Shown here piece by piece: positions 1-37,215 of a stretch of DNA of 37,215 nt; the stretch's first letter is position 1, and each line of letters opens with the position of its first letter. Source of the stretch: Lentzea tibetensis (GTDB taxonomy: Bacteria > Actinomycetota > Actinomycetes > Mycobacteriales > Pseudonocardiaceae); NCBI RefSeq assembly GCF_007845675.1, contig NZ_VOBR01000048.1, forward strand, positions 1-37,215, in the 5' to 3' direction. The position numbers and the translations under genes are program-made. The notes below the pieces were generated by a model, which searched no databases, had not been told where the DNA came from, and was given only the letters and a program-made list of their open reading frames with translations.

Positions 1-117
1 GAGGGGCTCGCTGATCACCAGAGGTCGCCACATCGAAAATGCCCTGTCAAGGCGGAAAAGCTGCCTTGACAGGGCATTTTCGATGTGGCAAGGCTTCGCC
101 TGATCAGCGAGCCCCTC
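1..117. repeat. Complex palindromic element, copy L (117 bp)
   Basis: Seen directly: outer arms 1-17 and 101-117 are perfect reverse complements (17 bp, starting GAGGGGCTCGC). Inner arms 27-53 and 63-89 are a perfect 27-bp stem closing a 9-nt loop (54-62). Between the stems lie an unpaired 9-nt left side (18-26) and an 11-nt right side (90-100). The left side can fold as CC-AGA-GG and the right as GGC-TTC-GCC, so the whole can form a four-way junction or cruciform. A second copy with the same frame but a different inner stem lies at 37100-37215 in the same orientation. Similarity runs past the arm: 118-125 here matches, in reverse complement, 37092-37099 beside the other copy, so the element is probably longer than the window shows. 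No coding capacity is supported. Its function is unknown. Confidence 0.9.
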
Positions 118-234
118 CCCACCCCCTGCCCTCCGGGAAAGTTTGTTCTGATCATTTGGCTGCCGGTTTGTGTTCGGGGGCCGCGCCCGTTTGGCAGTGC
201 GGGGGGTTGGGAGTGCGGCGGGCGCTCTTTTCTT

Positions 235-470
235 TTGGTATCTGCCGGTTTCGTCGGGCTCTCTTGGTGCCTGCCGGTTGGGGCGGTGGTCTGTTGGTAT
301 CTGGCGGTTGGGGCGGCGCCCCCTTGGTGCCTGCCGGTTCGCTGGGCTCTCTTGGTGCCTGCCGGATTCGCCGTGCTCGCCAGGTTCGCGGCGGTGTCGG
401 CGGCGCTCCCTTGGTGCCCGCGCTTTGGTCTGTGCTTCCTTGGTGCTGCGGTTTTCGCTGTGCTCTTGGG
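235..470. repeat. Degenerate tandem repeat, period 29-30 bp, about 9 units
   Basis: Copies of a core resembling TTGGTGCCTGCCGG begin near 235, 264, 294, 324, 352, 381 (badly decayed), 411, 440 and 466, so the spacing is 28-30 bp apart from the last, shorter unit. Units are contiguous, without unique spacers, and drift away from consensus to the right. The rest of the 118-547 gap holds no gene I can support: frames open on both strands here are low-complexity and lack a ribosome binding site. The array ends about 80 bp before the start of the small secreted-protein gene. It could be a replication-slippage array or a protein-binding array; nothing in the sequence decides which. Confidence 0.7.
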
Positions 471-547
471 ACAGTCCCGTTGACCGCCGGGGCGGACAGT
501 CGTTGAATGTCGCACGCGGCGGCACCCCGGACCTGAGGAGAAGCGCG

Positions 548-926
548 ATGCGGCGCACCCGAGCAGGCTTGACCGCACTACTGACCGCACTGTTGCTCGG
601 CGGCACGATCACCGTCGCCACCCCGGCCCACGCTGATGACCGAGACGGTCGTCCAGCTCAACGGCGTCATCCCCGTTGAGGTCGACGAACTGGTGTTCGC
701 CGATGGCGGCGCCACGGTGTTCGACCAGCCTCAGACCACGTCGTTCCTGATCACTGACGTGGGGACCGATCCCATCGAGTACGCGAAGGGCCTGACCAGC
801 GGCTCAGGGGACCAGCGGCTCTGCACGGTGACCTCGTCGTTCTCCAACCAGCCCACGATCGTCCCCATCACGATGCAGCGCGGCGCCGGGACCGACTGCG
901 TGTACTTCCGCATCAAGCAGAACTAG
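548..926 (+). pseudogene. Small secreted protein gene split by a frameshift
   Basis: The ATG at 548 has a good ribosome binding site (GAGGAG at 535-540, spacing 7) and opens a textbook signal peptide: MRRTR, a hydrophobic core rich in L/A/T, then ATPAHA as the cleavage site. That frame stops at 679. The frame beginning at 636 encodes a plausible mature domain of about 95 residues with two cysteines (within QRLCTV and TDCVYF), ending at 926, but it has no ribosome binding site and no signal. Joining the two near 632-638 needs a one-base change and would give one secreted protein of about 125 residues. So this is either a recent frameshift mutation or an assembly error. I do not recognise the mature domain; two cysteines suggest one disulfide. 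A hairpin terminator follows at 931-969. Confidence 0.65.
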
Positions 927-930
927 CGCG

Positions 931-969
931 AGGCCGGTCTCGGGTCGGCCGGCGACCCGAGACCGGCCT
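931..969. terminator. Bidirectional hairpin between convergent genes
   Basis: A perfect 17-bp stem (931-947 with 953-969) with a 5-nt loop sits between the 3' ends of the small secreted-protein gene (+) and the beta-galactosidase gene (-). There is no T-tract on either side, so it is either a T-less actinobacterial terminator or an mRNA 3'-end barrier. Confidence 0.7.
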
Positions 970-977
970 GTCGGGAG

Positions 978-3900
978 CTAGGCGCGGCAGCGCACCGTGG
1001 CCGCGGCCCAGTCGGCGTGGTCCCAGCCGTTGCCGTTGCCGCCGTCGGTCACCACTAGCCGCAGCGTGGTCGCACCGGACACGTCCACGTCGACCGGCAC
1101 CCCCGCGGCCGTGCCGGTGACCACGGGACTCGCATACCGGCGCTCGCCGTCGGCGTACACCTCGAAGCCGACGCTGCCCTGGCCGCCGGTCTCGTCGTCG
1201 ACCCCGGCCACCGCTGTGAAGCGCGTGCAAGCGCCACCGAGGTACAGCTCGACAGAGGACTCGGCGTGCGCGCCCAGGCCCGTGGCGAACTTGGTGCCGC
1301 GGATGCTGATGCCCGCGCCGTCGCCGCGCTGGTTCTCGCCGTTGCTCGTGTCGCGTTCGACCGGGCCCCAGCCGTTGGACTCGCTGACGAAGTCCAGTTT
1401 CGACACCACCGTGTCGCCGCGAGGTGAGGGTGGGGTGGCGGCGAAGTCGAGTGACGTCGTGGTCGACGCTGCGCCCGCGCTCACCTCGGCCAGTACCGGG
1501 CGTGCGCCGACCGGCGTGCCTGGGCCCCGCGTGAGGGTGAAGCGGACTGACTTGGTGTCGGTCACCGAGCCTAGATCGAACTGGGCCGGTGACGCGGTCC
1601 AGCCGGTGGGGGCGTGCACGGCGCCGCGCACCGCGGCGAGCGGGGCACCGCACGGGTTCGAGACGACCAGGTCCACCGGTACGGACTCGCCCGGCTCCAC
1701 GGAGGTGCGGGTCGCCTTCAGAGTGGCCTGCGGCGTGCAGTCGACGCGGGAACCCAGCTTGCCCGTCATCACCTCGGTCGGCGTGAGGGGGCGCAGTAGC
1801 ACCGAGTACGCGTACTCGCTCGACGCGTTCACGCGGTACTGGGGCAGCGGGGCGTGGAAGGTCTCGGACACGCCGGTCACGCGGTGGTCGACGTGCAGGG
1901 TCGTGCCATCCTTGTTGGGCTGCAAGGCGAACGGATACGCGGCGCGGTCCAGGTCGTCGTAGCGGGACACCCGGACGTCCAGGTCGCCCGCGACCATCAG
2001 GCCGCCGGTGCGGCCGTCGGACAGGGTTGCCCAGCGGGTGTCGGCGTGGTTGCCGTTGTCCTGCGGCTTGTAGTAGTCCTGGTGCTCGCGGTCCACAGTG
2101 GACTGGTAGACGCCGAGCGGGGTGCCCAGCTTGCGGTCGTCGTAGTTCTCGCCCGGACCGCGGCCGTACCAGGTGAAGCGCTGGAACTCGTCCGGCACCT
2201 TCAGCTTGAAGCCGATGTTCGGCAGGTACGACAGGTCGCGCATCCTGCCCGCCGCGGCCACCCGGTGGGTCAGGCGGATCTCGCCGTCGCCGGACACGCG
2301 GTAGGTGAACGTCTGGCCGAACGACGCGTCGGTGACGCCGGACGCGGTGGAGCGCACGGTGATCAGCGCGTCGTCGCCGTCGCGCGTCACCTCCACCGCC
2401 GAGGGCGAGGTGGCGAGGCGGTCCAGGCCCGCGCGGTACCACGACGAGTCCTCGCTCATGAACTCGTTGCTCAGCGGCGCGCGCCACGCGTCCAGCGACG
2501 GGCCGGTGCGCAGCAGCTCGGTGCCGCGGACGCGCATGGAGGTCAACGTGCCCTGCGCGCGGGAGAGTGCGTAGCGGAAGCCGGGGCCGGTGACCACGAC
2601 CTCGCGGTCGTTCGACTGCACGGCTACCGGGTCGCGTGGTGCGCCGGTGTGCAGGCCCGCCACGAGTGAGCCGCCGACCTGGAACTGGGCCACGCCCACC
2701 TCGGCGCCGGTCTTGCGGTTGATCGCGCGAGTGGTCAGCGTTCGTTCCACCTGCGAGGTGAAGGACGGCAGCTTGGTGGTGCCGACCTTCAGCGGGCGGT
2801 TCTCCGCGGCCACGGTGCGGCCGTTCTCCTCGACGCGCCAACGGAGTTCGAGGTCATCGGTGCCGGTGAACACGCGTTCGCTCGCGATGGTCAGGTCACC
2901 GTCCTGATAGGACATGTGGATGGGGGAGTGCACGGCCGCCAGCTCCGCCGCCTCCGGCTGGAGCCTGCGGTCGGACCACACCACGCCGTCCACACCACCG
3001 GTGCCGGCTCCGTAGGACTCCTTGCGCCCCTTGTCCTCCAGCGTCTCGAAGTCCAGTGCGAGCACGGCGGTGGACTTCGGGTCGGCGGTCAGCTCGGACT
3101 CGGTCAGCGCGCGGTGGTAGACGCGGACCTGGTCGATCACGCCGTGCGCCATGCGCGCGGTCGTGTTCTCCTGCATCTCCTCCGCGTCGCGGCCGATGTT
3201 CACCGGCCAGTGCGAGAACGCGATCTCGCCGGTCCACGCGCGGGTGCCGACTTCGCGGCCGTCGACCAGCAGGCGCAGCAGGTTCCCGTCGAACGTGCCG
3301 GTCACGCGGTGCCAGTTGCCGGTCCAGTCGGCGGGCACCTTCGCCTGCGCGACGTGCCAGCCACCCGCGCCGTACACGTGGAACTCCAGCGTGTCCGCCG
3401 ACGGCATCTTCAGCGCGTACTGGTGGTTGCCCTTCGAGATGATGGTGAAGCTGCCGGACCACGAGTCCGGCTTCACCCACGCGTCCAGCGTGAGCCCCTT
3501 GGACACCGCGTCGAACTTGCGGTCGCGGTAGACCTCGACGAAGTCGTCGAGACCGCTCAACGACAAGGCTTTGCCGACGCGACCGTCCACATGTGACGGA
3601 GCGCCGGTCAGATACGTGAAGATGTCGTTGCCCGACGAGTCGGGTGTGGTGAGCAGCGGCAGCTCGATGTTCTGCTCCGCCCAGTCCCAGATGAAGCCGC
3701 CCTGCGTCTGCGGGTGCTTGCGGATGACGTCCCAGAACTCCTTGAAGTTGCCGAGGCTGTTGCCCATCGCGTGCGCGTACTCGCCCATGACGATCGGCTT
3801 GGTCGTGCGCTGCGCCATCGACTCCAGCCCGGCGGGCGACGGGTAGCGCGGACCCCAGATGTCGGCGAACGGCGCGTCGCCGTCCGGCCCGTTCGACTGG

Positions 3901-5342
3901 TGGTACAGCGGCCTCGTGTCGTTCTTGCGCGCGTACTCGGCCATCGAGTAGTGCGCCTTGCCGAGTCCCGCCTCGTTGCCGGTGTCCCAGATGATGACGC
4001 TCGGGTGGTTCTTGTCGCGCTGCATCATCGCGGTGAACCGGTCGAGGAACGCGGCCTGCCACTCCGGCCGCTCGGCCAGGCAGTTGTTCGGGCACGCGTC
4101 GTGGTGGTGCGTCTCGACGTCGATCTCGTCCGCGATCATGATGCCCTCGCGGTCGGCCAGCTCGTACAGGTACGGGTCGCTCGGGTAGTGCGACGTGCGC
4201 ACGGCGTTGACGTTGAGCCGCTTCATCAGCTCGACGTCGCGTTCCTGCTCGGCGCGGGTGAGGTGCCTGCCGCCCTTGACGGACGTCTCGGCCCGGTTCG
4301 TGCCCTTGATCAGCACGCGCTTGCCGTTGATCAGCAGCTGCTTGTCGCGGACCTCGACCTCGCGGAACCCGACCGGCTGCCGCGCCACCTGCACGACCCG
4401 GCCACCGGCGTCGAGCAGCTCGATGACGAGCGTGTGCAGGTTCGGCGTCTCGTCCGTCCACTTGGCCGGGTTGCTCACCCTGCCGCCGGTCACCGGCACC
4501 ATGCGCCCGTTCGCGTCGTACAACGTGGTGCGAGTGCGGTGCCGCGCAACGGAACCGCCGATCTCGACGTTCGCGGACAACGTCGCGTCGCGGTACTCGG
4601 CGTCGAGATCGGTCTTGATCGTCACGTCGCGCAGGTAGGCCGCGGGGGTCGAGTAGAGCCACACCGACCGGAATATCCCGCTGAAGCGCCACTGGTCGAC
4701 GTCCTCCAGATGAGACCCGGAGCCCCAGCGGTGCACCTGCACGGCCAGGATGTTGGGGCCCGCCTTGAGGTGCTTGCTGATGTCGAACTCCGCGGGCGTG
4801 TAGCCGCCCTGGTCGTATCCGGCGTAGTTCCCGTTGACCCAGACGAAGTATCCGCTCGTCACGCCTTCGAACCGCAGCACCGTGCGGCGCGCGGCCCAGT
4901 CGTCCGGCAGCTCGAACGTCTTGGTGTACGCGCCGGTCGGGTTGACGTCACGGGGTACGCGCGGCGGGTCGTCCGGCCACATCTCGGTGGGGATGTTGCG
5001 GAACATCGGGTGATCCAGGCCGTCCGTTTGCCACGTGTGCGGCACGGAAACGCTGCGCCAATCGGCGTTTTCCCTGTTCTGGAAGCCTTTCGGCACGTCC
5101 TGCGGCCGCTGCGCCATCCGGATGCGCCACTCGCCGTCCAGTGAGCGCACCCACGGGGAGTCGGCGCCGCGCACCGCGTCCCGCACGTTCGCGTACGGTT
5201 TCAGCTCCGCGTGCGGCGGCACCTGCCCCTCGGCCACCATCTGCGGATTCTCCAGGTATGACTGGACGTCCGGATCCGCGGACGCAACCGCCGCAGGGGT
5301 GAAGGAGAGCGTCAACAGCACTGCGAGCGCGTGTCGGAGCAT
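978..5342 (-). CDS. Secreted GH2 beta-galactosidase, multidomain
   Basis: Glycoside hydrolase family 2 enzyme of about 1454 residues. Numbering from the ATG at 5342: signal peptide 1-22 (MLRHALAVLL to ASA); GH2 sugar-binding domain about 60-235; Ig-like domain to about 330; TIM barrel about 330-565. The acid/base Glu is in TGNEAG (about E457, E. coli GNESG) and the nucleophile is in GEYAHAMGNS (about E521). A LamG/concanavalin-like domain (about 570-760) is inserted after the barrel, followed by the beta-galactosidase C-terminal domains, a NEW3-type Ig-like domain and a C-terminal NPCBM-like module. It probably hydrolyses beta-galactosides of plant or microbial polysaccharides outside the cell. 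Start choice: an upstream ATG at 5366 lies between the -35 and -10 boxes of the likely promoter, whose -10 ends 8 nt before 5342. It is convergent with the gene at 548 and divergent from the MMPL gene. Confidence 0.93.
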   Translation of the reverse strand: MLRHALAVLLTLSFTPAAVASADPDVQSYLENPQMVAEGQVPPHAELKPYANVRDAVRGADSPWVRSLDGEWRIRMAQRPQDVPKGFQNRENADWRSVSVPHTWQTDGLDHPMFRNIPTEMWPDDPPRVPRDVNPTGAYTKTFELPDDWAARRTVLRFEGVTSGYFVWVNGNYAGYDQGGYTPAEFDISKHLKAGPNILAVQVHRWGSGSHLEDVDQWRFSGIFRSVWLYSTPAAYLRDVTIKTDLDAEYRDATLSANVEIGGSVARHRTRTTLYDANGRMVPVTGGRVSNPAKWTDETPNLHTLVIELLDAGGRVVQVARQPVGFREVEVRDKQLLINGKRVLIKGTNRAETSVKGGRHLTRAEQERDVELMKRLNVNAVRTSHYPSDPYLYELADREGIMIADEIDVETHHHDACPNNCLAERPEWQAAFLDRFTAMMQRDKNHPSVIIWDTGNEAGLGKAHYSMAEYARKNDTRPLYHQSNGPDGDAPFADIWGPRYPSPAGLESMAQRTTKPIVMGEYAHAMGNSLGNFKEFWDVIRKHPQTQGGFIWDWAEQNIELPLLTTPDSSGNDIFTYLTGAPSHVDGRVGKALSLSGLDDFVEVYRDRKFDAVSKGLTLDAWVKPDSWSGSFTIISKGNHQYALKMPSADTLEFHVYGAGGWHVAQAKVPADWTGNWHRVTGTFDGNLLRLLVDGREVGTRAWTGEIAFSHWPVNIGRDAEEMQENTTARMAHGVIDQVRVYHRALTESELTADPKSTAVLALDFETLEDKGRKESYGAGTGGVDGVVWSDRRLQPEAAELAAVHSPIHMSYQDGDLTIASERVFTGTDDLELRWRVEENGRTVAAENRPLKVGTTKLPSFTSQVERTLTTRAINRKTGAEVGVAQFQVGGSLVAGLHTGAPRDPVAVQSNDREVVVTGPGFRYALSRAQGTLTSMRVRGTELLRTGPSLDAWRAPLSNEFMSEDSSWYRAGLDRLATSPSAVEVTRDGDDALITVRSTASGVTDASFGQTFTYRVSGDGEIRLTHRVAAAGRMRDLSYLPNIGFKLKVPDEFQRFTWYGRGPGENYDDRKLGTPLGVYQSTVDREHQDYYKPQDNGNHADTRWATLSDGRTGGLMVAGDLDVRVSRYDDLDRAAYPFALQPNKDGTTLHVDHRVTGVSETFHAPLPQYRVNASSEYAYSVLLRPLTPTEVMTGKLGSRVDCTPQATLKATRTSVEPGESVPVDLVVSNPCGAPLAAVRGAVHAPTGWTASPAQFDLGSVTDTKSVRFTLTRGPGTPVGARPVLAEVSAGAASTTTSLDFAATPPSPRGDTVVSKLDFVSESNGWGPVERDTSNGENQRGDGAGISIRGTKFATGLGAHAESSVELYLGGACTRFTAVAGVDDETGGQGSVGFEVYADGERRYASPVVTGTAAGVPVDVDVSGATTLRLVVTDGGNGNGWDHADWAAATVRCRA

Positions 5343-5350
5343 GTTCCCTG

Positions 5351-5380
5351 ACGCTAGGGACGGCATGACAACGTCGTCAA
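5351..5380 (-). promoter_or_regulatory. Promoter of the beta-galactosidase gene
   Basis: On the minus strand, TTGACG (5380-5375), an 18-bp spacer and TAGCGT (5356-5351) make a good -35/-10 pair. Only 8 nt separate the -10 from the ATG at 5342, so the transcript would be leaderless or nearly so. Confidence 0.55.
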
Positions 5381-5406
5381 GAAATGTCCGATGAATCTGT
5401 CCGGGT

Positions 5407-5412
5407 TAAGGT
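5407..5412 (+). promoter_or_regulatory. -10 box of a leaderless start (MMPL gene)
   Basis: TAAGGT fits TAnnnT and ends exactly 6 nt before the ATG at 5419, which has no ribosome binding site. I see no convincing -35. Confidence 0.45.
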
Positions 5413-5418
5413 CCTTCG

Positions 5419-7446
5419 ATGCGCTGGACTCTGCCCGCTCTGCTGGTCGTGTTGTGGCTCGTCGTCGGTGGCATCGGCGGACCGTTGCAGGGCCAGTTGG
5501 CCGACGTCCAGAAGAACGACAACGCGTCGTTCCTGCCCGAGTCCGCCGAGGCGACCGAGGTCGCCGACCTGCAGAAGCGGTTCGCGGACAAGCAGTCCCT
5601 CCCCGCGCTCGTCCTGTTCGAACGCGACACCGAGCTCACGCAGGACGACCTCATCCTGATCAACGTCAGGACGAACGCGGTGCGCGGCAACGACTTCGTC
5701 GTCGGCCAGGTGTTCGGGCGGCCGTCGGAGGACCGCAAGGCGTTCCAGGTGCTCGTGCCCATGCGGCCTGCCGGGTCGGAGACGACCGAGCTGGTCGCCG
5801 ACCTGCGGACGCAGATGGGGGAGGCGCTGCCGGACGGGCTGCGCGTGTACGTGACCGGCCCGGCCGGGCTGCTCGGCGACTTCGCCAAGGCGTTCGACGG
5901 CATCGACGGCCTGCTGCTCGGCGTGACGGCGATCGTGGTCGCGGTGATCCTGGTGATCGTCTACCGCAGCCCGATCCTGCCGCTCGTGGTGCTGATCAAC
6001 GCCGGGCTGGCGCTGTGCGCGGCCGTGCTCGTCGTGTACGGGCTGGCGAAGTCCGACGTGCTCACGCTGAACGGCCAGAGCCAGGGCATCCTGTTCATCC
6101 TCGTGTTCGGCGCGTCGACGGACTACTCGCTGCTGCTCGTCGCCCGGTTCCGCGAGGAACTGCACAGCGAGGAGACGCGCTGGCCCGCGCTGCGCACCGC
6201 GTGGAAGCAGTCGTTCGAACCGATCGTGGCGTCCGCGGGCACCGTGATCCTCGGCCTGATGTGCTTGCTGCTGTCCGACCTCAAGTCGAACCAGGGCCTC
6301 GGCCCGGTGGCCGCGATCGGCGTCACCGCGTCCGTGCTGGCGACGCTGACGTTCCTGCCCGCCGTGCTGGCGCTGCTCGGGCGCTCGGCGTTCTGGCCGT
6401 TCCGCCCGAAGACGGGCACGGACCCGCACAGCCCGCGTTCGCTGTGGACGCGGGTGGCCGCGTTCGTCGGGCGGCGGCCGCGCTGGACGTGGCTGGCCAC
6501 GGCCGTCGTGCTGCTCGCCGGGGTGGCGTTCGTGCCCCAGTTCAAAGCGGACGGCGTGCCGCAGACCGAGCTGTTCCTGACGCCCGTGGAGTCCGTGCAA
6601 GGCCAGGAGGCGCTGAACAAGCACTTCCCCGGCGGCACCGGCTCACCGGTCGTGATCATCGCGCCAGAAGGCTCCGATGTGGAGGCCAGGGTGCGGGCGT
6701 TCGACGGCGTGAACGACGTCCAGCGCAACCCGAAGACCGTCGACGGCCTGGTCGAGCTGCGCGCCACGCTGAAGTACCAGGCGGACAGCCCCGAGGCCGT
6801 CGCGACGGTGCGTCAGCTGCGGGCCGACCTGGACGCGAAGGTCGGCGGCTCCACCGCCGTGCAGGTCGACGTGCGGGACACGGCCAACCGCGACCTGCGC
6901 ACGATCATCCCCATCGTGCTGGTGGTGATCTTCCTGGTGCTCGCGCTGCTGCTGCGCGCCCTGCTGGCGCCGGTGCTGCTGATCGCGACCGTGGTGCTGT
7001 CGTTCGCCGCGACGCTCGGCGTGGCCGCGCTCGTGTTCAACAACGTGTTCGACTTCCCCGGCGCGGACCCGAGCGTGCCGCTGTTCGCGTTCGTGTTCCT
7101 CGTGGCGCTGGGGATCGACTACAACATCTTCCTGATGACGCGGGTGCGCGAGGAGTCGCTGCTGCACGGCACCCGCGCGGGCACCCTGCGCGGCCTGACC
7201 GTGACCGGCGGCGTGATCACCTCGGCGGGCGTCGTGCTGGCGGCGACGTTCGCCGCGCTGTCGGTCCTGCCGCTGCTGTTCCTGGCCCAGATCGCGTTCC
7301 TGGTGGCGTTCGGCGTGCTGCTCGACACGCTGCTGGTGCGATCACTGCTGGTACCGGCCCTGACCGTCGACATCGGCGGGCGCGTGTGGTGGCCTGCGCG
7401 TTTCCCAGCAGACGGAAAGTCCGCTCCAGCGCTCCGCTCGGGTTAG
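5419..7446 (+). CDS. MMPL family transporter (RND superfamily)
   Basis: 675 residues with the twofold MMPL architecture. There is one N-terminal membrane helix (about 4-20), an extracytoplasmic loop (about 25-160) and a membrane bundle (about 165-350). The pattern then repeats with a helix at about 355-375, a loop, and a second bundle at about 490-655. Family members are proton-driven exporters of lipids, siderophores or drugs at the cytoplasmic membrane; the acidic/tyrosine-rich membrane motifs [10 protein letters not shown] and [10 protein letters not shown] are present. The substrate cannot be read from sequence. It lies 10 bp upstream of mshC in the same direction, and its stop codon overlaps the likely mshC -10 box, so mshC can be transcribed independently. 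Confidence 0.9.
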
Positions 7447-7449
7447 ATT
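7444..7449 (+). promoter_or_regulatory. -10 box of a leaderless mshC transcript
   Basis: TAGATT ends 7 nt before the mshC ATG, and its first three bases are the stop codon of the preceding MMPL gene. There is no ribosome binding site before mshC. Confidence 0.45.
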
Positions 7450-7456
7450 CGAGGCC

Positions 7457-8695: not shown

Positions 8696-8705
8696 GAAAT
8701 GCCGC

Positions 8706-8735
8706 GGGGGCACCTCCACGGATGGAGGTGCCCCC
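8706..8735. terminator. Hairpin between convergent mshC and subtilase genes
   Basis: A perfect 13-bp stem (8706-8718 with 8723-8735) with a CGGA loop, between two convergent stop codons (8695 and 8752). There is no long T-tract. It probably serves both directions. Confidence 0.75.
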
Positions 8736-8751
8736 GACGGTTCTTCAGCAC

Positions 8752-24927: not shown

Positions 24928-24967
24928 GACGGGCTCCTCCATACCTCGTGGAAGGTGAACTTTTCAG

Positions 24968-25133
24968 CGCCGCAGCCGGTCTCCTGACTCCCGGATCAAC
25001 GCTGCCCCGCGTCTTCCCAGCCCCGAGGTGGGACCAGTGACGTGCTCGGCGGGGTTCGCTTCCCGGTCACAGTGGCGAGGACCGCGCCGGATTTTCACCG
25101 GCTTCCCGTCACTGCGGCGGTGGAACCGTAAGT
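24968..25133 (-). ncRNA. Cobalamin riboswitch controlling cbtBA
   Basis: Read on the minus strand, the region contains the conserved cobalamin-aptamer blocks in order: GGGAAGCCGGTGAAAATCCGG (B12 core start, near 25110-25088), then CCTCGCCACTGTGACCGGGA and, at the 3' side, GAGTCAGGAGACCGGC (near 24990-24975). The structured part ends about 40 nt before the cbtB start, leaving room for a ribosome-sequestering switch; I see no T-rich intrinsic terminator. Boundaries are approximate. Confidence 0.93.
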
Positions 25134-26176: not shown

Positions 26177-26203
26177 GGTCGGTTCTCGCGGCCGGCGGTG
26201 AGG

Positions 26204-27304: not shown

Positions 27305-27568
27305 GTGAAGACCTTCGACGAGTTGTTCGCCGAACTCAGCGACCGCGCCCGCACCAAGCCAGAAGGATCCGGCACCGTTGTAGCACTGGAGGCCGGCGTC
27401 CACGCGCAGGGCAAGAAGGTGCTCGAGGAAGCCGGCGAGGTGTGGATCGCCGCGGAGCATGAGAGCGACGAACGGCTGGCGGAGGAGATCTCGCAGCTGC
27501 TGTACCGGCTGCAGGTCCTCATGCTGGGCCGCGGGCTGACCCTGGACGACGTCTACAAGTACCTGTGA
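27305..27568 (+). CDS. hisE: Phosphoribosyl-ATP pyrophosphohydrolase
   Basis: 87 residues from the GTG at 27305, with GGGAGG (27289-27294) 10 nt upstream. All-alpha HisE fold: [13 protein letters not shown], then [19 protein letters not shown], whose E-x-x-E Mg-binding acidic residues hydrolyse the pyrophosphate of PR-ATP in step 2 of histidine synthesis. Usual length for a stand-alone HisE. Directly upstream of hisG, as in mycobacteria. Confidence 0.95.
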
Positions 27569-27582
27569 CTGGAGACCGGACC

Positions 27583-28443: not shown

Positions 28444-28448
28444 GTGAG

Positions 28449-29066: not shown

Positions 29067-29172
29067 CGCTGCGCACTCACCGTCCCGGCCGCGCCGGCGT
29101 CACCCACGTTCGTGTTGCGGGCCCACGCCACGGCCTTCGTGCACCCACGGTACGTCCGCGCCAGTCTGTCGG

Positions 29173-29964
29173 TCACCCGGAACGGCTACCCCTTTCCCGC
29201 ACGAACAACGCCTGGGCGGTCCGGCCGACCGGCCCGGTCTCGTCGTGCAGGACGCTCGCCGCGACACCCACGCCGTCCGGCCCGATGACGGTGTTCGCCT
29301 CCAGCGCGAACCACTCGCCGGTCGGCTGGCGGAACAGGTGCACCGACAGATCCGTGTTGATGGAGAACCACTTGCGGATGTCCAGCCTGCTCGACACCCC
29401 GCTCGCCGAGTCCGCGATCGCGAACAGCTTCTGCAGCGGCGACGCCTGCTCACCGTCGACGGTCTCGACCTTCGGCCGTCCCCACACGGTCGCGTCGCCG
29501 GGCGTGAAGATGCCGCCGCCGCGCAACGCCAGCCACTCGACAGCCGCGAGGTAGCCGCCGCCCCAGCCTTCCGGGACGCGCATGGGCTCGGCCGCGTCCG
29601 GCGGGTCCACACGCGGTGGGGCACCGGCGCGCACGGCCTCGGTGTCACTCGTGACGATGCGCCACGCCTTCGCCGCCAGCACCGCGCGACCCTCGTACCG
29701 CAGCTCGCCGCGCAGCAGCTCGACGCTGCGCCCCGGCCGTTCCACCTCGGCGTGCACCTCGAGCTCGGCGACCGGCACCGGGCCGAGCACCTCGAACGTC
29801 ACCCGCGCCAGGTGCGCGTCCTCGCGCGGCGCGGTGCGCTCGAACTCGCGGACGAGCAGCGCGCTCGGCGGGCCGAGGTGCTGGCTCTCGGCGTTCCACG
29901 GACCCACCGTGTGCTGGGTGCTCCGGTACCGGTTTTCCCCCGCGGGGATGAAGAACGCGCCCAT
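29173..29964 (-). CDS. Acyl-CoA thioesterase-like protein (double hotdog)
   Basis: 263 residues from the ATG at 29964, whose A is the last base of the preceding RecB-like gene's TGA stop (TGATG), so the two are translationally coupled. The composition and segments fit the TesB-like/thioesterase superfamily: an N-terminal half with GPPSALLVREFERTAP and a C-terminal half with DLSVHLFRQPTGEWFALEANT and TGPVGRTAQALFVR. It probably hydrolyses acyl-CoA thioesters. The catalytic Asp/Gln/Ser set cannot be assigned with certainty from sequence alone. Confidence 0.82.
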   Translation of the reverse strand: MGAFFIPAGENRYRSTQHTVGPWNAESQHLGPPSALLVREFERTAPREDAHLARVTFEVLGPVPVAELEVHAEVERPGRSVELLRGELRYEGRAVLAAKAWRIVTSDTEAVRAGAPPRVDPPDAAEPMRVPEGWGGGYLAAVEWLALRGGGIFTPGDATVWGRPKVETVDGEQASPLQKLFAIADSASGVSSRLDIRKWFSINTDLSVHLFRQPTGEWFALEANTVIGPDGVGVAASVLHDETGPVGRTAQALFVRERGSRSG

Positions 29965-30845
29965 CAGTCCGCCCTGTCCAGGATCGTCTCGTCCTCGTCC
30001 GGCTCCGGCCAGCCGGGGTACGGCGGGGGAGTGCCGTCGAACTCCGGGCAGAGCGCCTTGTGGTCGCAGTAGTCGCACAGCCTGCTCTTGCTCGGCCGGA
30101 AGTCACCGGTCGGCGCGGCCCGCATGATCGCAGCCCAGATCGCTTCGAGCGTCCGCTCGAACCGCTTCAGCTCGGCCTCGTCCGGCTGGTACGCCAGCGC
30201 CTGCCGGTCGGCCAGGTACATCAGCCGCAGCTGCCGCGGCACCTCGCCGCGCAGCCGCCACAGCACCAGCGCGTAGAACTTCATCTGGAACAGCGCCTTG
30301 GCCTCGTTGACCTCGCGCGGCGCCGCCCCGGTCTTGTAGTCGACGACGCGGATCTCACCTGTCGGCGCGACGTCCACCCGGTCGATGTACCCGCGCAGCA
30401 GCACACCCGATGGCAGCTCCGACTCGACCAGCAGCTCCCGCGACTCCGGCTCCAGCCTGCGCGGGTCCTCCAGGCCGAAGTAGCCGTCCAGCAGCGACTC
30501 CGCGGACCTCAGCCACTCCGCTTCCTCCTCGGCGCCGTCCGCGAAGAGGCCTGCGAACTCAGGGCGTTCCGCCTTCACCCGCGTCCACGCCGGACTCAGC
30601 AGAGCTTTCGCCTGATCCGGCATCCGTTCCTGGGCGGGCAGGCCGAAGAGGTCCTCCAGCACGGCGTGCACGACCGTGCCGCGCACCTGCGCCTTGGTCG
30701 GCTTCTCGGGGAGACGGTCGACGGCGCGGAAGCGGTAGAGCAGCGGGCACTGCTTGAAGTCACCAGCGCGCGAGGGGGAGAGCGCAGGTCTGCGCACAGG
30801 CCTCTGAGCCGTCACGGGTGGATCTTGGTGCAGTGGTTCCGCCAT
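29964..30845 (-). CDS. RecB-family PD-(D/E)XK exonuclease, Fe-S type
   Basis: 293 residues. The nuclease core has LSPSRAGDFKQCPLLYRF, the active-site His in GTVVHAVLEDLF, then the Asp of RGYIDRVDV and the D-Y-K of VVDYKTG. Cys33 with Cys257, Cys260 and Cys266 (CDYCDHKALC) gives the C-xn-C-x2-C-x5-C iron-sulfur cluster seen in AddB, Cas4 and related RecB nucleases. A single-domain protein with no helicase; equivalent, to my knowledge, to Rv2119. It probably acts in DNA repair. A TAACCT box lies 8 nt before the ATG. Not a Cas4: no CRISPR repeats or cas genes are nearby. Confidence 0.9.
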   Translation of the reverse strand: MAEPLHQDPPVTAQRPVRRPALSPSRAGDFKQCPLLYRFRAVDRLPEKPTKAQVRGTVVHAVLEDLFGLPAQERMPDQAKALLSPAWTRVKAERPEFAGLFADGAEEEAEWLRSAESLLDGYFGLEDPRRLEPESRELLVESELPSGVLLRGYIDRVDVAPTGEIRVVDYKTGAAPREVNEAKALFQMKFYALVLWRLRGEVPRQLRLMYLADRQALAYQPDEAELKRFERTLEAIWAAIMRAAPTGDFRPSKSRLCDYCDHKALCPEFDGTPPPYPGWPEPDEDETILDRAD

Positions 30846-30853
30846 GACTCGAA

Positions 30854-30859
30854 AGGTTA
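30854..30859 (-). promoter_or_regulatory. -10 box of a leaderless start (RecB-like gene)
   Basis: On the minus strand TAACCT ends 8 nt before the ATG at 30845; there is no ribosome binding site. Confidence 0.4.
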
Positions 30860-30913
30860 GGCGAGGGGTCTGACAGTCTTGGACGCCGCGCCGCCTCGCT
30901 CGGCTTCGCGCAC

Positions 30914-31020
30914 ACCTCGCGAGGTCGCGTCGGTCGTCCGGACGCCCGGTCTCGTCGGAATCGGCGAAGCCCATTTCGGCGAGAGCGAGTGGCCGGACGA
31001 CCGACTTCCCGGCGACCTCG
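30914..31020. repeat. Structured inverted repeat in a divergent intergenic region
   Basis: The left arm 30920-30941 (22 nt) is fully complementary to two blocks on the right: 30993-31005 (13 bp) and 31012-31020 (9 bp), separated by a 6-nt bulge. Inside, 30950-30957 pairs with 30977-30984 (8 bp, one G-T). The 12-bp palindrome ACCTCGCGAGGT (30914-30925) overlaps the left end. It fills much of the 241-bp gap between the divergent RecB-like and site-2-protease genes. It could be a structured RNA, an operator or a REP-like element. Confidence 0.6.
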
Positions 31021-31074
31021 CCGCCGTCTGCGGAGCAGCGGCCATCCAACACCGCATCCCTACACCCGTACGCC

Positions 31075-31080
31075 TAGGCT
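31075..31080 (+). promoter_or_regulatory. -10 box of a leaderless start (site-2 protease gene)
   Basis: TAGGCT, identical to the metH box, ends 6 nt before the GTG at 31087; there is no ribosome binding site. Confidence 0.45.
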
Positions 31081-31086
31081 CAGCGG

Positions 31087-33085
<1,999 letters not shown>

Positions 33086-33088
33086 GCG

Positions 33089-33814
33089 TCAGGCGCCGGT
33101 CAGGTAGCGGTTGTCGCAGAGCTGCCAGTCGCCGCCGGACTTCTTCCAGGTGTAGGTGACGTCCTGGTTGATCTTGCGCTCGCCGAGGTTGCCTTCGACG
33201 TGCATGGTGACCTCGGCGGAGTCGCCCGACTCCGTCACGGACTTGACCGTGGCCTTGGTCGACGTGTTCTGCTTGATCTTGTCCAGCTCGGCCTTGGTCC
33301 TCGGGTCCTTGTTGACCGCTTCCAGTGACTGCTCGACCTTCGTGCGGATGTCGGGGCAGATCATGGACATGTACTTGGCCTCGTCCTTGGCGCTCACCGC
33401 CGCGGCGTACTCCTCGGCGGCTGCCTTGGCGCCACCGCCCCCGAAGTACATCAGGGCCGCGACGGCACCCCCCACGAGCACCAGCACACCGGCGATGACA
33501 CCGATGATCAGGCCGGTCTTGCTCTTCTTCGGCAGCGGAGGGCCGTAGCCGTAGGGCTGCTGCGGGCCGCCGTATCCAGGAGGCGGCTGCTGCCCGTAAC
33601 CCTGCTGCTGGCCGTAACCCTGCTGCCCGTAGCCCGGCTGTTGCCCATAGCCCTGCTGCTGCCCGTATCCGGGCTGCTGGCCGTACGGGTCGGGCTGGCC
33701 GTAGCCCGGCTGGGGTGGCTGCTGCCCGTGCGGTCCCGGCTGACCGGGCTGCTGCCCGTACGGTCCCTGGGGCCCAGCGCCTGGGGGACCCGGAGGCTGT
33801 GGGGGGTACGTCAT
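33089..33814 (-). CDS. Membrane-anchored protein with Q/G/P/Y-rich repeats (paralogue A)
   Basis: 241 residues from the ATG at 33814 (a GTG at 33823 is also open). Residues 1-95 are disordered low-complexity repeats of the type GYGQQ/PYGQQP. One membrane helix ([22 protein letters not shown], about 103-124) follows, then an extracytoplasmic domain of about 115 residues ([28 protein letters not shown] to [10 protein letters not shown]) that resembles DUF4878/NTF2-like domains, with two cysteines probably forming a disulfide. Function unknown. It lies 3' to its paralogue at 33906 and separated from it by a terminator; convergent with trmI (3 bp apart). Confidence 0.85.
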
Positions 33815-33867
33815 GCCGCCCACCGTGCCCTAACTCATCCCGATTTGCCCAGTGAATCGGGACACGC

Positions 33868-33897
33868 AAAAGAGGCCCGGCCGATCGGCCGGGCCCC
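33868..33897 (-). terminator. Intrinsic terminator of paralogue B
   Basis: The perfect 22-bp palindrome 33874-33895 (GGCCCGGCC-GATC-GGCCGGGCC) is followed on the minus strand by TCTTTT. It sits 10 bp beyond the stop of the gene at 33906, separating its transcript from paralogue A. Confidence 0.88.
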
Positions 33898-33905
33898 TGG
33901 GCGCA

Positions 33906-34667
33906 CTACTTGACCTTGATGTCCTCCGGCCGCATGCAGTACTTCCAGTCGCCGGACTCCTTCTTGAACTTGATGTCCAGCGTCGACTCCTGCTTCTTGC
34001 CCACGACCGTGATCTCGTACTTCACGTTCGCGGTCGCCGTGTCGCCCGAGACCGTGACGTTGTTGACCGTCACGGTCGGGGCAGGCGTGTTCTTCGAGAG
34101 CTCCTCGGCCCTGCGCTGGAGCTCGGGGTCGACCGACACGGTCGGCTTTCGCTCGAGCGCGTCCAGCACCTCCTTGCACGTCAAGGACTTGAGCTTGCTC
34201 TCGTTCTTGCTGCGCATCGCGCTGTAGAACTCGTCGACCGCCTCCTTGGCGTCGGCGTCGCCGCCGCTGTCACCGGAGTTCGAGTTCGTGTTGGTGTTGC
34301 CGCTGTTGCCCGACGCGCTGTTGCTCGAACCGCCGCCGCTCGAACCCGACATGGCCGCGATGCCGACGATCACGCCCACCAGCACGAGCACGCCGGCGAT
34401 GACGCCCACGACCACGCCCGTGTTGTTCTTCTTGGGCGGCGGGCCGTAGCCGTAGGGCGGCTGCGGGCCCCCGTACCCCGGCGGCGGCTGCTGGCCGTAC
34501 GGACCGGGCTGGCCAGGCTGGCCGTAAGGCGGCTGCTGGCCGTATCCCTGCTGCGGTGGCTGACCATAGGGCCCCGGCTGCTGGGGCTGTTGGCCATGAG
34601 GCTGCTGCCCGTATCCGGGCGGCGGCTGCTGGCCGTACGGGCCCGGCTGCTGTGGCGGGTAGGTCAT
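33906..34667 (-). CDS. Membrane-anchored protein with Q/G/P/Y-rich repeats (paralogue B)
   Basis: 253 residues from the ATG at 34667, with GGGGGAAAG about 4 nt upstream. Same layout as paralogue A: disordered repeats 1-78 ([25 protein letters not shown]), a membrane helix (about 84-106, [20 protein letters not shown]), a Ser/Gly/Asn linker, then a DUF4878-like domain with cysteines in LTCKEV and KYCMRP. It ends DIKVK. The two genes are an old tandem duplication: the repeats, the helix and the final D-W-x-x-C motif match, while the linker is unique to B. Function unknown; such proteins are common and multicopy in actinobacteria. Confidence 0.87.
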   Translation of the reverse strand: MTYPPQQPGPYGQQPPPGYGQQPHGQQPQQPGPYGQPPQQGYGQQPPYGQPGQPGPYGQQPPPGYGGPQPPYGYGPPPKKNNTGVVVGVIAGVLVLVGVIVGIAAMSGSSGGGSSNSASGNSGNTNTNSNSGDSGGDADAKEAVDEFYSAMRSKNESKLKSLTCKEVLDALERKPTVSVDPELQRRAEELSKNTPAPTVTVNNVTVSGDTATANVKYEITVVGKKQESTLDIKFKKESGDWKYCMRPEDIKVK

Positions 34668-35235
34668 CTGCTTTCCCCCGATGTGGTGTCCTGGTACTGA
34701 TAACGATTGAGCCACCCTGGCGTCACCGGACGGCTGTTCGTGGCCGGTGGGCCGGATGCGCGGCCAAAACCACCCGGTTGGCCGCACGGTCGCTGACCGT
34801 ACTGGCCCCGCTCCCCGCCGTGTCGCGGACCCGTCGGAGATGTCCGGATCGCTGTGGGTGACGAGCACCAGGCCCGGTGGTGGTCCACTCTGTGAGAACT
34901 AGGTGAATTCCGCCCCGAACCCCCAGGCCCGGACCGATACGTCCGCTTCGTCGCGGTCGCTCTGCGTGGGGATCAGTCCGCCCCGGTGGGACTGACATCG
35001 GATCTCCCGGCACTTCTCGCAGGTCGCGGGCGTGTTACGAGATCGACACGGCGACGCCGGTTACGAGACGCACCGTAGTGGGTAGGCGGTGGCTCCCGAC
35101 ACCGAGATGGAGCAGTTCACCCTCCAGCCGGGGGGAATCTTGCGTCACACGCCCGAAGATGATGTTGTGGGTGGCCCATTTTGTCGGTGATCGCCGGTAC
35201 CGTAACTGGTACGAACACGGGAGGAGGGTGCCGAC
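34668..35235. other. 568-bp divergent intergenic region before arc
   Basis: No gene is supported here. The open frames are short, unsupported by ribosome binding sites and show no recognisable protein. It holds several small inverted repeats: CGGCCAA/TTGGCCG and the adjacent ACGGTC-GCT-GACCGT near 34760-34800, TCAGTCC/GGACTGA near 34973-34996, and GTACC-N6-GGTAC near 35197-35212. There is also a direct repeat TTACGAGA at 35035 and 35061. The promoters of paralogue B and arc must lie here. Confidence 0.5.
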
Positions 35236-37026
35236 ATGCAGCACGGTCATCCCGGCAGCCAGCCTGACGAGGGCGGCGAGCTGAACCAGGGCAACAATTC
35301 TGAGCTGACAGCGCAGATCAGGTTCCTCGAGGACGAGATCGCGCTGCTGCGCCGCAAGTTGACGGAATCCCCGCGGCACGTCCGCTTGCTGGAGCAGCGG
35401 TTGGCTGAGGCGTCCGAGCGCGTCAGCCAGCTGACCGAGCGCAACACGAAGCTCATAGACACCCTCCGCGAAGCACGAAGCCAGTTGCTGGCGTTGCGTG
35501 AGGAGGTCGACCGGCTGGCCCAGCCACCCAGCGGGTACGGCGTCTTCATGGCGCGCTTCGAAGACGGCACAGTGGACGTGTTCACGTCCGGCCGTCGGAT
35601 GCGCGTCGCCGTTTCCCCGGCGGTGGAGGCCGAGAAGCTCTCCTTCGGTCAGTCGGTGCGTCTCAACGAGGCGCTCACGGTGGTCGAGGGCGGTGGCTTC
35701 GAACGCTCCGGTGAGGTCTGCGCGCTGCGCGAAGTCCTCACAGACGACGACGACACGATCGCGCGGGCGCTCGTGGTCGGGCACGCGGACGAGGAGAGAG
35801 TGGTCTGGCTCGCCCAGCCGCTGCTCGAGTCGCCGCTCAAGCCCGGCGACTCGTTGCTCGTCGACACCAAAGCGGGCTTCGCGTACGAGCGCGTGCCGAA
35901 GGCCGAGGTCGAGGACCTCGTGCTGGAGGAGGTGCCCGACATCGACTACAGCGACATCGGTGGCCTCGCCCGGCAGATCGAGCAGATCCGCGACGCGGTC
36001 GAGCTGCCGTTCCTGCACGCCGACCTGTTCCGCGAGTACGAGTTGCGGCCGCCCAAGGGCGTCCTGCTGTACGGCCCTCCCGGCTGCGGCAAGACGCTGA
36101 TCGCCAAGGCGGTGGCGAACTCACTGGCCAAGAAGGTGCTCGAAGCCCGTGGCGAGAGCAACAAGCAGGCCAAGTCCTACTTCCTGAACATCAAGGGCCC
36201 CGAGCTGCTCAACAAGTTCGTGGGCGAGACCGAGCGGCACATCCGGCTCATCTTCCAGCGGGCGCGCGAGAAGGCGTCCGAAGGCACCCCGGTGATCGTG
36301 TTCTTCGACGAGATGGACTCGATCTTCCGCACCCGCGGCTCCGGTGTGTCGTCCGACGTCGAGACGACGATCGTGCCCCAGCTGCTGTCGGAGATCGACG
36401 GCGTCGAAGGCCTCGAGAACGTCATCGTCATCGGCGCGTCCAACCGCGAGGACATGATCGACCCGGCGATCCTGCGGCCAGGCCGCCTCGACGTGAAGAT
36501 CAAGATCGAGCGGCCGGACGCCGAAGGTGCGAAGGACATCTTCACCAAGTACCTGACGCAGACGCTCCCGCTGCACGCCGACGACCTCGCCGAGTTCGGC
36601 GGGGACCCGAAGGCCTGCATCGAGGGCATGGTGCAGCACACCGTCGAGCGCATGTACGAGGAGTCCGAGGAGAACCGCTTCCTGGAGGTCACCTACGCCA
36701 ACGGTGACAAGGAGGTCCTGTACTTCAGGGACTTCAACTCCGGCGCGATGATCCAGAACATCGTCGACAGGGCCAAGAAGGCGGCGATCAAGTCGCTGCT
36801 GGACACCAAGCAGCCAGGGTTGTCCGTGCGGCACCTCATGGAAGCGATCGTCGACGAGTTCGCTGAGAACGAGGATCTGCCGAACACGACCAACCCCGAT
36901 GACTGGGCTCGTATCTCCGGTAAGAAGGGGGAGCGGATCGTTTACATCCGCACCCTGGTTACTGGGAAGAACCAGGAGTCTGGGCGGGCCATCGACACGG
37001 CCACCAACACTGGGCAGTACCTGTAG
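35236..37026 (+). CDS. arc: Proteasome-associated AAA+ ATPase (ARC/Mpa)
   Basis: 596 residues; a strong ribosome binding site (GGAGGAGG) precedes the ATG. An N-terminal coiled coil (about 22-95), which in Mpa captures the Pup tag, is followed by OB-fold interdomains (about 98-240) and an AAA+ module with Walker A GPPGCGKT (280-287), Walker B VFFDEMDS (Asp358, Glu359) and the arginine-finger region RPGRLD. The C-terminus is QYL, the motif that docks into the 20S core and opens its gate. It unfolds pupylated proteins for the proteasome. In related genomes dop, pup and the prcBA genes lie next to it, presumably just beyond the right end of this window. An intrinsic terminator follows. Confidence 0.97.
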
Positions 37027-37040
37027 GTCCTGTGTGGAGG

Positions 37041-37070
37041 GAGCCCCCGGTCGTTGCCGGGGGCTCTTTT
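37041..37070 (+). terminator. Intrinsic terminator of arc
   Basis: A perfect 10-bp G/C stem (37041-37050 with 37057-37066) with a TCGTTG loop is followed by TTTTCTTT, 14 bp after the arc stop codon. Confidence 0.93.
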
Positions 37071-37099
37071 CTTTGTGTGGGCTTTGGTGGTGGGGTGGG

Positions 37100-37215
37100 G
37101 AGGGGCTCGCGGATCACCAGAGGTGGCCATATTTTCAGGTCGGGGTCAAGACAAAAAGACGTCTTGACCCCGACCTGAAAATATGGCAAGGCTGCGCCTG
37201 ATCCGCGAGCCCCTC
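37100..37215. repeat. Complex palindromic element, copy R (116 bp)
   Basis: Same architecture and orientation as copy L. Outer arms 37100-37116 and 37199-37215 (perfect 17 bp); left bulge 37117-37125 and right bulge 37188-37198; inner arms 37126-37152 and 37161-37187 (perfect 27 bp); 8-nt loop. The bulges match copy L at 8 of 9 and 10 of 11 positions and keep the mini-hairpins CC-AGA-GG and GGC-TGC-GCC. The inner stem keeps 6 of 7 base positions and 7 of 8 tip positions, but only 2 of 12 in the middle. It lies downstream of the arc terminator, so it is not needed to end arc transcription. The window ends at its last base. Confidence 0.9.

Follow-up and report, generated by a model that had tools for sequence, protein, structure and literature searches.

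Two palindromes at the ends of a Lentzea tibetensis contig belong to a repeat family that lies after genes in many related species

The two palindromes at the ends of the window, the 37,215-nt stretch of DNA that was analysed and that forms one whole contig (C53), belong to a family of repeats found after genes in many related species. Across copies, the hairpin tip and the asymmetric bulges at a four-way junction are conserved, and the stems vary between and within genomes, yet remain mostly Watson-Crick paired. We describe the family, its distribution and gene-end position, two orthologous sites that are empty in congeners, covariation that is Watson-Crick only, and the reassortment of its modules. 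That the arms vary with a near-constant match to themselves speaks for arms being rewritten from each other and exchanged from copy to copy, not for an isolated oddity.

Results

Anatomy of the window palindromes

Copy 1 (1-117) and copy 2 (37100-37215) lie one at each end of the window, copy 2 past the 3′ end of mpa. The features, all on the + strand, are as follows.

1..17, +: copy 1 outer stem, left arm; 17/17 pairs with 101-117; the window start is the contig end
18..26, +: copy 1 left bulge CCAGAGGTC; from its sequence, a CC-AGA-GG mini-hairpin and a 2-nt linker
27..89, +: copy 1 inner hairpin (I7, 27 nt, 100% complementary); 27-bp stem, type A middle
54-62, +: copy 1 loop GGAAAAGCT, within the inner hairpin
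90..100, +: copy 1 right bulge AAGGCTTCGCC; 3-bp mini-hairpin
101..117, +: copy 1 outer stem, right arm, pairing with the left arm
118..240, +: right-hand module (CCCTCCGGGAAAG type), which follows class-1 copies; about 150 bp conserved
241..470, +: degenerate iterons CTTGGTrCCTGCCGG (repeat families D5 and D10), after the right-hand module
35236..37026, +: mpa, proteasome ATPase (TIGR03689, 843.9 bits, cut-off 504.75)
37042..37074, +: terminator-like hairpin and T-run of mpa, ahead of copy 2 (by eye)
37086..37099, +: copy 2 left edge GGTGGTGGGGTGGG, the approximate start of similarity between copies
37100..37116, +: copy 2 outer stem, left arm; 17/17 pairs
37117..37125, +: copy 2 left bulge CCAGAGGTG
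37126..37187, +: copy 2 inner hairpin (I8, 27 nt, 100% complementary); 27-bp stem, type B middle
37153-37160, +: copy 2 loop AAAAAGAC, within the inner hairpin
37188..37198, +: copy 2 right bulge AAGGCTGCGCC
37199..37215, +: copy 2 outer stem, right arm; the contig stops here

Sequence and pairing counts bear out the initial annotation, which had reported an outer stem, bulges and tip shared by both ends, a fully paired 27-bp stem despite near-total divergence of its middle, a compensated outer-stem difference and mini-hairpins in both bulges. The outer stem is Watson-Crick paired at 17/17 positions in each copy, including position 12, which is T-A in one and G-C in the other. The inner arms are complementary at 27/27 positions in each copy, despite agreement between copies at 15/27 bases over the whole arm and 2/12 at positions 8-19. 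Both copies carry the tip GTCAAG (GTCAAG...CTTGAC in the family), and both the left and the right bulges are able to form mini-hairpins; among 29 aligned copies, the CC/GG pairs of the left bulge and all three pairs of the right were invariant (29/29). The outer stem is about 7 bp longer where a copy has both flanks (5/231 cells unpaired), an extension that the contig ends hide in the window copies. For L011, a copy from the same genome, the predicted single-stranded DNA fold has an energy of -71.8 kcal/mol, compared to -20.9 (sd 2.7) for 200 shuffles (z -18.7).

Size and distribution of the family

The right-hand frame occurs 57 times (54 and 3) in the host genome at 0-1 mismatch. A covariance search of the host and its relatives, which the initial annotation had proposed, recovered many copies. 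There are at least 75 places in the host genome, partial copies included, as counted from 145 two-strand rows with 150 of 6368 candidates scored. Of 200 genomes from the host's family, 30 (its own included) matched the covariance model, R1; they fall in 11 of 46 genera, four of which have a single match. Among the congeners, G000, G024 and G013 are rich in copies, and G014, G018, G020 and G004 had no match at 18 scored candidates. Match rows, which include some copies twice, once per strand, numbered 128 in G069, 78 in G110, 55 in G236, 26 in G157, 23 in G188, 20 in G223, 2 in G232, and none in G063 or G035. An alignment, A4, of 20 type-II sequences from five genera has the common tip GTCAAGGCGGGAAAG.GTGCCTTGAC plus GGCTnnGnATCGGG. 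By R1, none of 12 genome-contig stretches that match the 19-position frame has the structure. The idea that the window holds two sole copies explained by chance is contradicted by the 75 places and by the folding z-score.

For the analyses below, a strict frame pattern retained 63 copies (47 class 1, 10 class 2 and six from G024) and dropped incomplete or altered ones such as L018, L019, L037, L044, L045, L062, L063 and L064. Class-1 tests were run on 33 internal copies, without the 14 at contig ends. The set from other genomes comprised 80 of 81 rows, a double reading of L298 being dropped; it is the best-scoring part of the R1 lists. L294 had no tip, and L302, an atypical member, was kept.

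In the host genome, 26 of the 75 places lie at a contig end or within 130 nt of one, and thus the two window copies mark assembly breaks. The arm chimeras L054 and L071 are also located at contig ends. It is nevertheless hardly credible that chimeric or perfect arms are assembly artefacts, as the same pattern occurs in internal copies and in the single-contig chromosomes of G069, G110, G157 and G223, and another arm chimera, L240, lies within a single-contig chromosome.

The arms change together

Across the alignment, 98.4% of 1361 cells were paired, with 286 two-sided and three one-sided cells; 0/500 shuffles reached the observed number of paired cells or the covariation score. A minimum spanning tree of the 33 internal class-1 copies has 39 two-sided and four one-sided pair changes; the copies being related, its steps do not count as independent. 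G069, from a distant genus, gave 49 and nine. One-sided steps were more frequent than in class 1 in G236 (27:10), G223 (27:9) and G110 (6:3). The exception was class 2, with eight two-sided and nine one-sided steps and an inherited A.C mismatch at pair 4, carried by five of its 10 copies; correction is therefore not universal. Type-II stems were also less perfect (84/1840 cells non-Watson-Crick, many at fixed positions), and those of G032 have several unpaired positions in common.

These counts bear on two points of the initial annotation. That every copy is perfectly palindromic holds insofar as pairing is near-perfect despite strong divergence in several genera, but class 2 and type-II copies of G032 carry mismatches. 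Gradual divergence with mismatches, regarded as evidence against copying between arms, is seen in part: many steps involve one or two pairs, and class 2 and G032 have mismatch-bearing copies.

Mismatches in the inner stems give no sign of a preference for G.U. In 1701 pairs from 63 copies, non-Watson-Crick cells were A.C (15), G.T (12) and others (four); in 1840 pairs from the 80 further copies they were G.T (eight), A.C (14) and other (62). As G.T is not favoured, pairing is apparently kept at the DNA level. An asymmetry of 51 A.C to two G.T across 30 loci, a set in which seven loci are closely similar copies of one genome and L130 was misparsed, was absent from the 80 further copies, and we rejected strand asymmetry of mismatches.

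Perfect stems could also result from ordinary recent duplication of a few perfect ancestral palindromes that have had no time to decay. Identical stems are indeed common: there are 20 distinct stems among the 33 class-1 copies, and one 15-bp middle recurs in 10 copies of G157. We consider this explanation unlikely, as the downstream modules of the same 33 copies show a mean divergence of 14.8% and 28 private changes, and close copies differ by single compensated pairs (for example, L061 and L033 at pairs 3 and 18). Moreover, private unpaired changes in inner stems numbered four, where the flank rate would predict 11.7 (Poisson p 0.009). The outer arms, however, count against arm correction: they match in only 21 of 33 copies (7.8 expected by shuffling) and have 10 such changes, with 10.4 predicted from the flank rate; comparing inner with outer stems gave p 0.10.

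Middles move between copies

Copying of one arm from the other and exchange of the middle as a unit had both been proposed, and both left traces. For arm copying, these are the excess of two-sided steps in class 1 and G069 and a flipped loop, AGCTTTTCC, found in L030 (1/63 parsed copies). For exchange, middle types A and B showed no association with either the left mini-hairpin or the downstream module (12/13/4/4 and Fisher p 1.0 for each). Since two unrelated middles are equally frequent on both tested frame backgrounds, the middle moves as a unit. By eye, L301, from a single-contig chromosome, has a frame inverted relative to its tip.

The middle is not, however, a sharply bounded 12-bp cassette within a constant frame, as the initial annotation had it, since outer stems vary too and are wholly different between subfamilies (class 2, G024). 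We also rejected the middle as a hypervariable cassette. Its variability was 0.319 in the main G069 subfamily (left frame 0.265, right frame 0.100), 0.101 in G110 (0.119 and 0.046) and 0.364 in G236 (0.404 and 0.253), little or no more than that of the left frame.

Copies lie past gene ends

In the host genome, a sense gene stop lies upstream of 32 of 40 copies, compared to 244 of 1903 positions placed at random. On the right side, the mirror test gave 0/30 but is confounded because the right-hand module and iterons occupy that side. Across six other genomes, at least one side of 64 of 80 copies has a gene end no more than about 330 nt away; in a control from different genomes, made of random pieces cut from this window and L222, the figure was 696 of 2000. 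Sense orientation to the upstream gene, considered as a general rule, failed in two of them: G110 has a convergent gene end on the right in 16 of 20 copies and a sense one on the left in nine, and G223 has these in 13 and six of 17. A polarity relative to the replication strand, hinted at by the first 10 G223 copies, was lost with 20 matches (nine minus and three plus, and four minus and four plus, in the halves split at 3.9 Mb); by eye and with origins not located, strands are mixed in G069 and G110.

This position raises the possibility, which we regard as improbable, that the repeat is a structured RNA at mRNA 3′ ends (a terminator, stabiliser or processing site) in which selection on RNA keeps the pairing. 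The sense-oriented copies just past gene stops in the host genome, the gene ends near copies elsewhere, the predicted RNA fold of L011 (-122.7 kcal/mol, z -20.4) and the A.C excess at 30 loci, which would be G.U on the other strand, are consistent with it. However, that excess did not recur in the 80 further copies and G.U was not enriched, sense orientation is not general, and no Rfam family reached its gathering score on the elements. Unlike an intrinsic terminator, the hairpin has no T-run after it: TTTT within 22 nt past the outer stem occurs in 1/49 copies on the + strand and 0/49 on the - strand.

All of 24 congeners lack the element at the mpa and sucB sites, and R1 matched 0 of 48 congener loci but both of the host's own. 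The gap after sucB is 1415 nt in the host, compared to 104-183 nt in the congeners. Boundaries of the insertions are obscured, at sucB by added repeats and at mpa by the contig end, and no target-site duplication is resolved. By eye, most of the 24 congeners also have a hairpin like the mpa terminator downstream of that gene. An upstream terminator was rejected as a required target: a strict scan was positive in 3 of 40 class-1 upstream flanks. In all 40 class-1 copies with flank, the right-hand module matches at least three other copies co-linearly; in class 1 of the host genome, the repeat is fused to this module and the iterons.

Searches for an enzyme or source

A co-occurring Y1/HUH nuclease gene had been suggested. 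Y1_Tnp (PF01797) is absent from the host genome and from the most copy-rich ones (no match in G000, G024, G223, G032, G110, G069, G236, G188, G157, G010 or G011). It matched 6 of 21 genomes (G007, G013, G017, G018, G020 and G035), among them three copy-bearing congeners (G007, G013 and G017), and 5 of 14 named control genomes. On the question whether middles match phage or plasmid DNA, plasmid, phage and viral sequences gave no match to the elements. None of the copies retrieved bears a gene. In G288, a transposon lies beside the hairpin; its IS481-like transposase and its ATPase both score below the NCBIfam cut-offs. Since the transposon's likely inverted repeats (L221, 268-294 and 3481-3507) leave the hairpin outside, the transposon is not the autonomous parent on present evidence. 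Rfam 15 had no hit above the gathering threshold on the elements in the window or in 12 loci; 16 hits fell below threshold, mostly miRNA hairpins.

Discussion

On balance, we favor a joint reading in which the family is a non-autonomous REP/MITE-like repeat, non-coding, about 115-135 bp long and larger than known REPs, that spreads to gene 3′ ends, and in which template switching and conversion between copies homogenise the arms. Each copy, as extruded or single-stranded DNA, can fold into a four-way junction whose tip and bulges are conserved. The arms would stay identical because one is recopied from the other (template switching or quasipalindrome correction), either at replication or as the repeat propagates, and recombination between copies would swap whole middles. 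The constant tip and bulges may be the recognition features for a putative trans-acting protein. Since template switching alone would randomise the loop, its near-constant orientation means that strand-specific selection must be added.

In integron attC sites, the folded strand is recognised through bulged bases and carries a variable paired stem. Constant bulges with a variable stem follow the same logic here, modules reassort between copies, and copies lie past gene ends. Even so, it is very unlikely that these are attC-like sites for folded single-strand recombination: the R boxes RYYYAAC (left half) and GTTRRRY (right half) are absent from 49/49 copies, and the retrieved copies are dispersed over many contigs.

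REP sequences and REPINs are high-copy, non-coding palindromes of lineage-specific sequence, most of which lie past gene ends and in the gaps of convergent or co-directional gene pairs (PMC3733652, PMC3116915); REP stems are 5-13 bp long with a GTAG or CGTC tag at the foot (PMC3733652). Our repeat resembles these RAYT-associated elements in copy number, palindromic non-coding sequence and position. It differs from them in its 27-bp inner and at least 17-bp outer stems and its four-way junction; GTAG occurs in 0/49 left arms and CGTC in 6/49, and the most copy-rich genomes lack Y1_Tnp. Bacterial MITEs and enterobacterial RU repeats are non-coding intergenic units of about 100-170 bp with non-autonomous mobile behaviour (PMC2229807, PMC2759123). 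Similar size, intergenic location and mobile-like behaviour link our repeat to them, as do its terminal inverted repeats (the outer stem) and the two sites empty in congeners. Unlike those elements, it has a conserved apical tip with variable stems, and no target duplication or related transposase is shown.

Quasipalindrome correction, or template-switch mutation, predicts homogenised arms, compensated jumps of several pairs and loop inversion (PMC8794818, PMC8604942), and all three traces are present here. The cases in those papers concern RNA genes and yeast genes; here there is a dispersed repeat family with exchange between copies.

A more tentative and rather doubtful idea is that the repeat is a new mobile DNA hairpin with a folded single-stranded intermediate, recognised at tip and bulges by a putative non-Y1 enzyme, in which fold-back synthesis rewrites one arm at each copying. 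If so, every copy would be born perfectly palindromic, and its stems would then drift and be swapped.

For the host, the family accounts for part of this assembly's contig breaks. For the bacterial family, it adds a widespread repeat that is absent from the literature searched, which was covered in part, and that a Y1 transposase does not explain. With hundreds of matches in several genera, it is a natural system for counting arm correction and middle exchange, which makes it possible to test a mutation mechanism against selection as the keeper of perfect palindromes.

A repeat family at the contig ends

The palindromes at 1-117 and at 37100-37215, the latter after mpa, have the positions and architecture described in the initial annotation, with 17/17 outer and 27/27 inner pairs formed in each copy. 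Just two of the 12 bases at inner positions 8-19 are common to both copies, and the sole outer-stem difference is compensated, again as described. The finding is real, and it is wider than the window sequence could reveal. Since the window is all of contig C53, one of 105 in a 9.36-Mb assembly, the two copies mark assembly breakpoints; contig ends hold 26 of the genome's 75 repeat places. These 75 places, partial copies counted, derive from 145 two-strand rows found with R1, a covariance model built on 29 sequences and 47 pairs. Strict parsing gave 63 copies, six of them from the congener G024, and the genome has 57 occurrences of the right-hand frame GGCAAGGCNNCGCCTGATC with zero or one mismatch (54 and 3).

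Two subfamilies are present. Class 1 begins ~30 nt to the left of the junction. In 40/40 copies with flank, a conserved ~150 bp module comes next, and decaying iterons then extend to ~+900. In class 2 the outer stem (TCTCCGTACGGCGCA) is unrelated and the flanks differ, but the bulges are similar and the tip, the conserved hairpin end, is identical. The inner hairpin is missing from three loci (L019, L044, L045), whose breakpoints differ by eye, the pattern expected of deletions across a hairpin. By eye, three G024 loci (L092, L099, L105) carry module-like stretches (GGGCCGCGCCCG...) without an adjoining class-1 palindrome, one just past a gene end.

The window also contains:
24957-25131, minus strand: cobalamin riboswitch (RF00174, 107.4 bits)
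33571-34650: tandemly repeated short units of ~18 nt (GCTGCTGGCCGTAACCCT type), forming two adjacent stretches

The stretches at 33571-34650 resemble minus-strand genes with low-complexity ends.

Paired bases change together

In the alignment A2, two-sided changes, in which both bases of a pair differ and pairing is kept, occur in 29 of 47 pairs (286 two-sided cells vs 3 one-sided, counted as cells rather than events because the rows are related copies). Pairing was retained in 98.4% of cells, a value as high in 0/500 shuffles; sliding the partner by 1-3 columns left 32.5-42.5% paired. On minimum spanning trees, the inner stems of 33 internal class-1 copies gave 39 two-sided and 4 one-sided changes. 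G069, with 16 different 15-bp middles among 20 copies, gave 49 and 9, and other genomes 27/10 (G236), 27/9 (G223), 15/3 (G188), 6/3 (G110) and 0/1 (G157). The perfect pairing despite divergence first noticed in the window therefore recurs in distant genera, though with more imperfections than in class 1; the exception is class 2, whose ten copies gave 8 two-sided and 9 one-sided changes.

Under selection on an RNA, G.U is expected to be the commonest exception to pairing. Among 1701 inner pairs, the non-Watson-Crick combinations were A.C (15), G.T (12) and others (4); a second set of 1840 contained 14 A.C, 8 G.T and 62 others. A published account describes the impact of G-U pairs as benign (PMC8794818). 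Private unpaired changes in inner stems numbered 4, compared to 11.7 predicted by the flank rate (p 0.009), and in outer stems 10, compared to 10.4 (inner vs outer, p 0.10). These counts, weak alone, are consistent with correction that is strongest on the compact inner hairpin. Template switching is known to homogenise arms and invert spacers (PMC8604942). The loop of L030 is flipped, L240 is an arm chimera located in a complete chromosome, and L031, from the host genome, is a possible arm chimera with one mismatched pair. In L301 (G188), the bulged frame points the opposite way from normal with respect to the tip, which makes this copy an isomer of the common form.

Middles reassort as units

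Exchange of the middle as a unit, one of two routes proposed in the initial annotation, is borne out in the 33 internal class-1 copies. The two unrelated middles, types A and B, are evenly split over the two left mini-hairpins (12/13 and 4/4; Fisher p 1.0) and show the same distribution over the two downstream types (12/13 and 4/4; Fisher p 1.0). Thus, the middle reassorts against both the adjoining mini-hairpin and the downstream module. Outer left and right arms were concordant in 21/33 copies, compared to 7.8 in shuffles (0/20000 as high), indicating that they are still partly linked across the middle. The simplest account we infer is that short tracts are converted between copies, with the junction and tip that they share as boundaries.

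Distribution in other genomes

By blastn, similarity was confined to 4/61 genomes, including the host's own. R1 structure searches matched 30/200 genomes of the host's family (own included) in 11/46 genera, four of which had a single match; as 18 candidates were scored per genome, copy numbers are floors. When 150 candidates were scored in nine genomes, each assembled into one to three contigs, match numbers ranged from 128 (G069) down to 2 (G232), some copies matching on both strands, with none in two of the nine, G063 and G035. In A4, an alignment of 20 type-II sequences from five genera, the tip elements GTCAAGGCGGGAAAG.GTGCCTTGAC and GGCTnnGnATCGGG are common to distant members whose stem sequences are little alike, so the members are homologous and not just long hairpins of any kind. 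The canonical tip pattern occurred in 2/394 genomes of the class, once in the host and once in another family; because the host's family is thinly represented in this sample and class-1 tips escape the pattern, the result informs on the class at large only. The second of these copies (L221, G288 contig C23) is the only one that this search found outside the host's family.

Position past gene ends and probable insertion

A sense gene stop lies 27-228 nt ahead of the class-1 junction in 32/40 copies, compared to 244/1903 random placements in the same loci; the mirror test on the right side (0/30) is confounded by the module occupying that side. In six other genomes, 64/80 copies have a gene end no more than ~330 nt away to one side or both (control, 696/2000 random pieces drawn from the window and the host locus L222).

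We compared two sites with 24 congeners: mpa, identified by TIGR03689, and sucB, a partial protein scoring 399.8 bits with TIGR02927, under the whole-protein cut-off of 423.45. R1 matched 0/48 congener loci and both own loci; for G004 and G023, the sequence covered downstream of mpa was limited to 110 and 328 nt. The distance from sucB to the next gene start is 1415 nt in the host and 104-183 nt in the 24 congeners. Given the empty sites and the long sucB gap, the natural reading of these sequences is that the element was probably inserted at both sites in the host lineage. By eye, the sucB insert (L193) contains one more long palindrome, of a different type (GGGCCTTGACTTGGGG ... CCCCAAGTCAAGGCCC). 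Past mpa, again by eye, G020 and G023 carry a hairpin of another kind based on GATGAAGGG...CCCTTCATC, and G004 a stretch related to that hairpin (loci L166, L176 and L169 across the three congeners).

What may spread the repeat

The initial annotation had raised a co-occurring Y1/HUH nuclease gene and a phage or plasmid match for the middle. Y1_Tnp is missing from the host and from the most copy-rich genomes, indicating that a genome-encoded RAYT is not required, at that sensitivity. Three further congeners that do carry copies have it, as do three genomes that lacked a match or bore no copies at the tested depth. No match came from plasmid, phage or viral collections, and no gene was seen in any of the copies fetched. 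Membership in REP/RAYT, attC or intrinsic terminators is ruled out by the features tested.

Two neighbourhoods are leads only. At C88:221814 in the host (L219/L222), a type-II copy adjoins by eye a tRNA 3'-end-like stretch and a GntR-type-looking gene, surroundings that resemble those of an integrative element; no complete tRNA was detected there by ARAGORN. The G288 copy lies ~140 bp from, and outside, an IS481-like transposon, a unit in L221 that comprises a cysteine-rich small protein, an IS481-like transposase and an ATPase and has its inverted repeats at 268-294 and 3481-3507.

A bolder reading, that the repeat is a mobile hairpin copied by fold-back, seems to us improbable. The repeat works like a large REP or MITE, its arms probably held near-identical through DNA-level correction and its middles swapped between copies.
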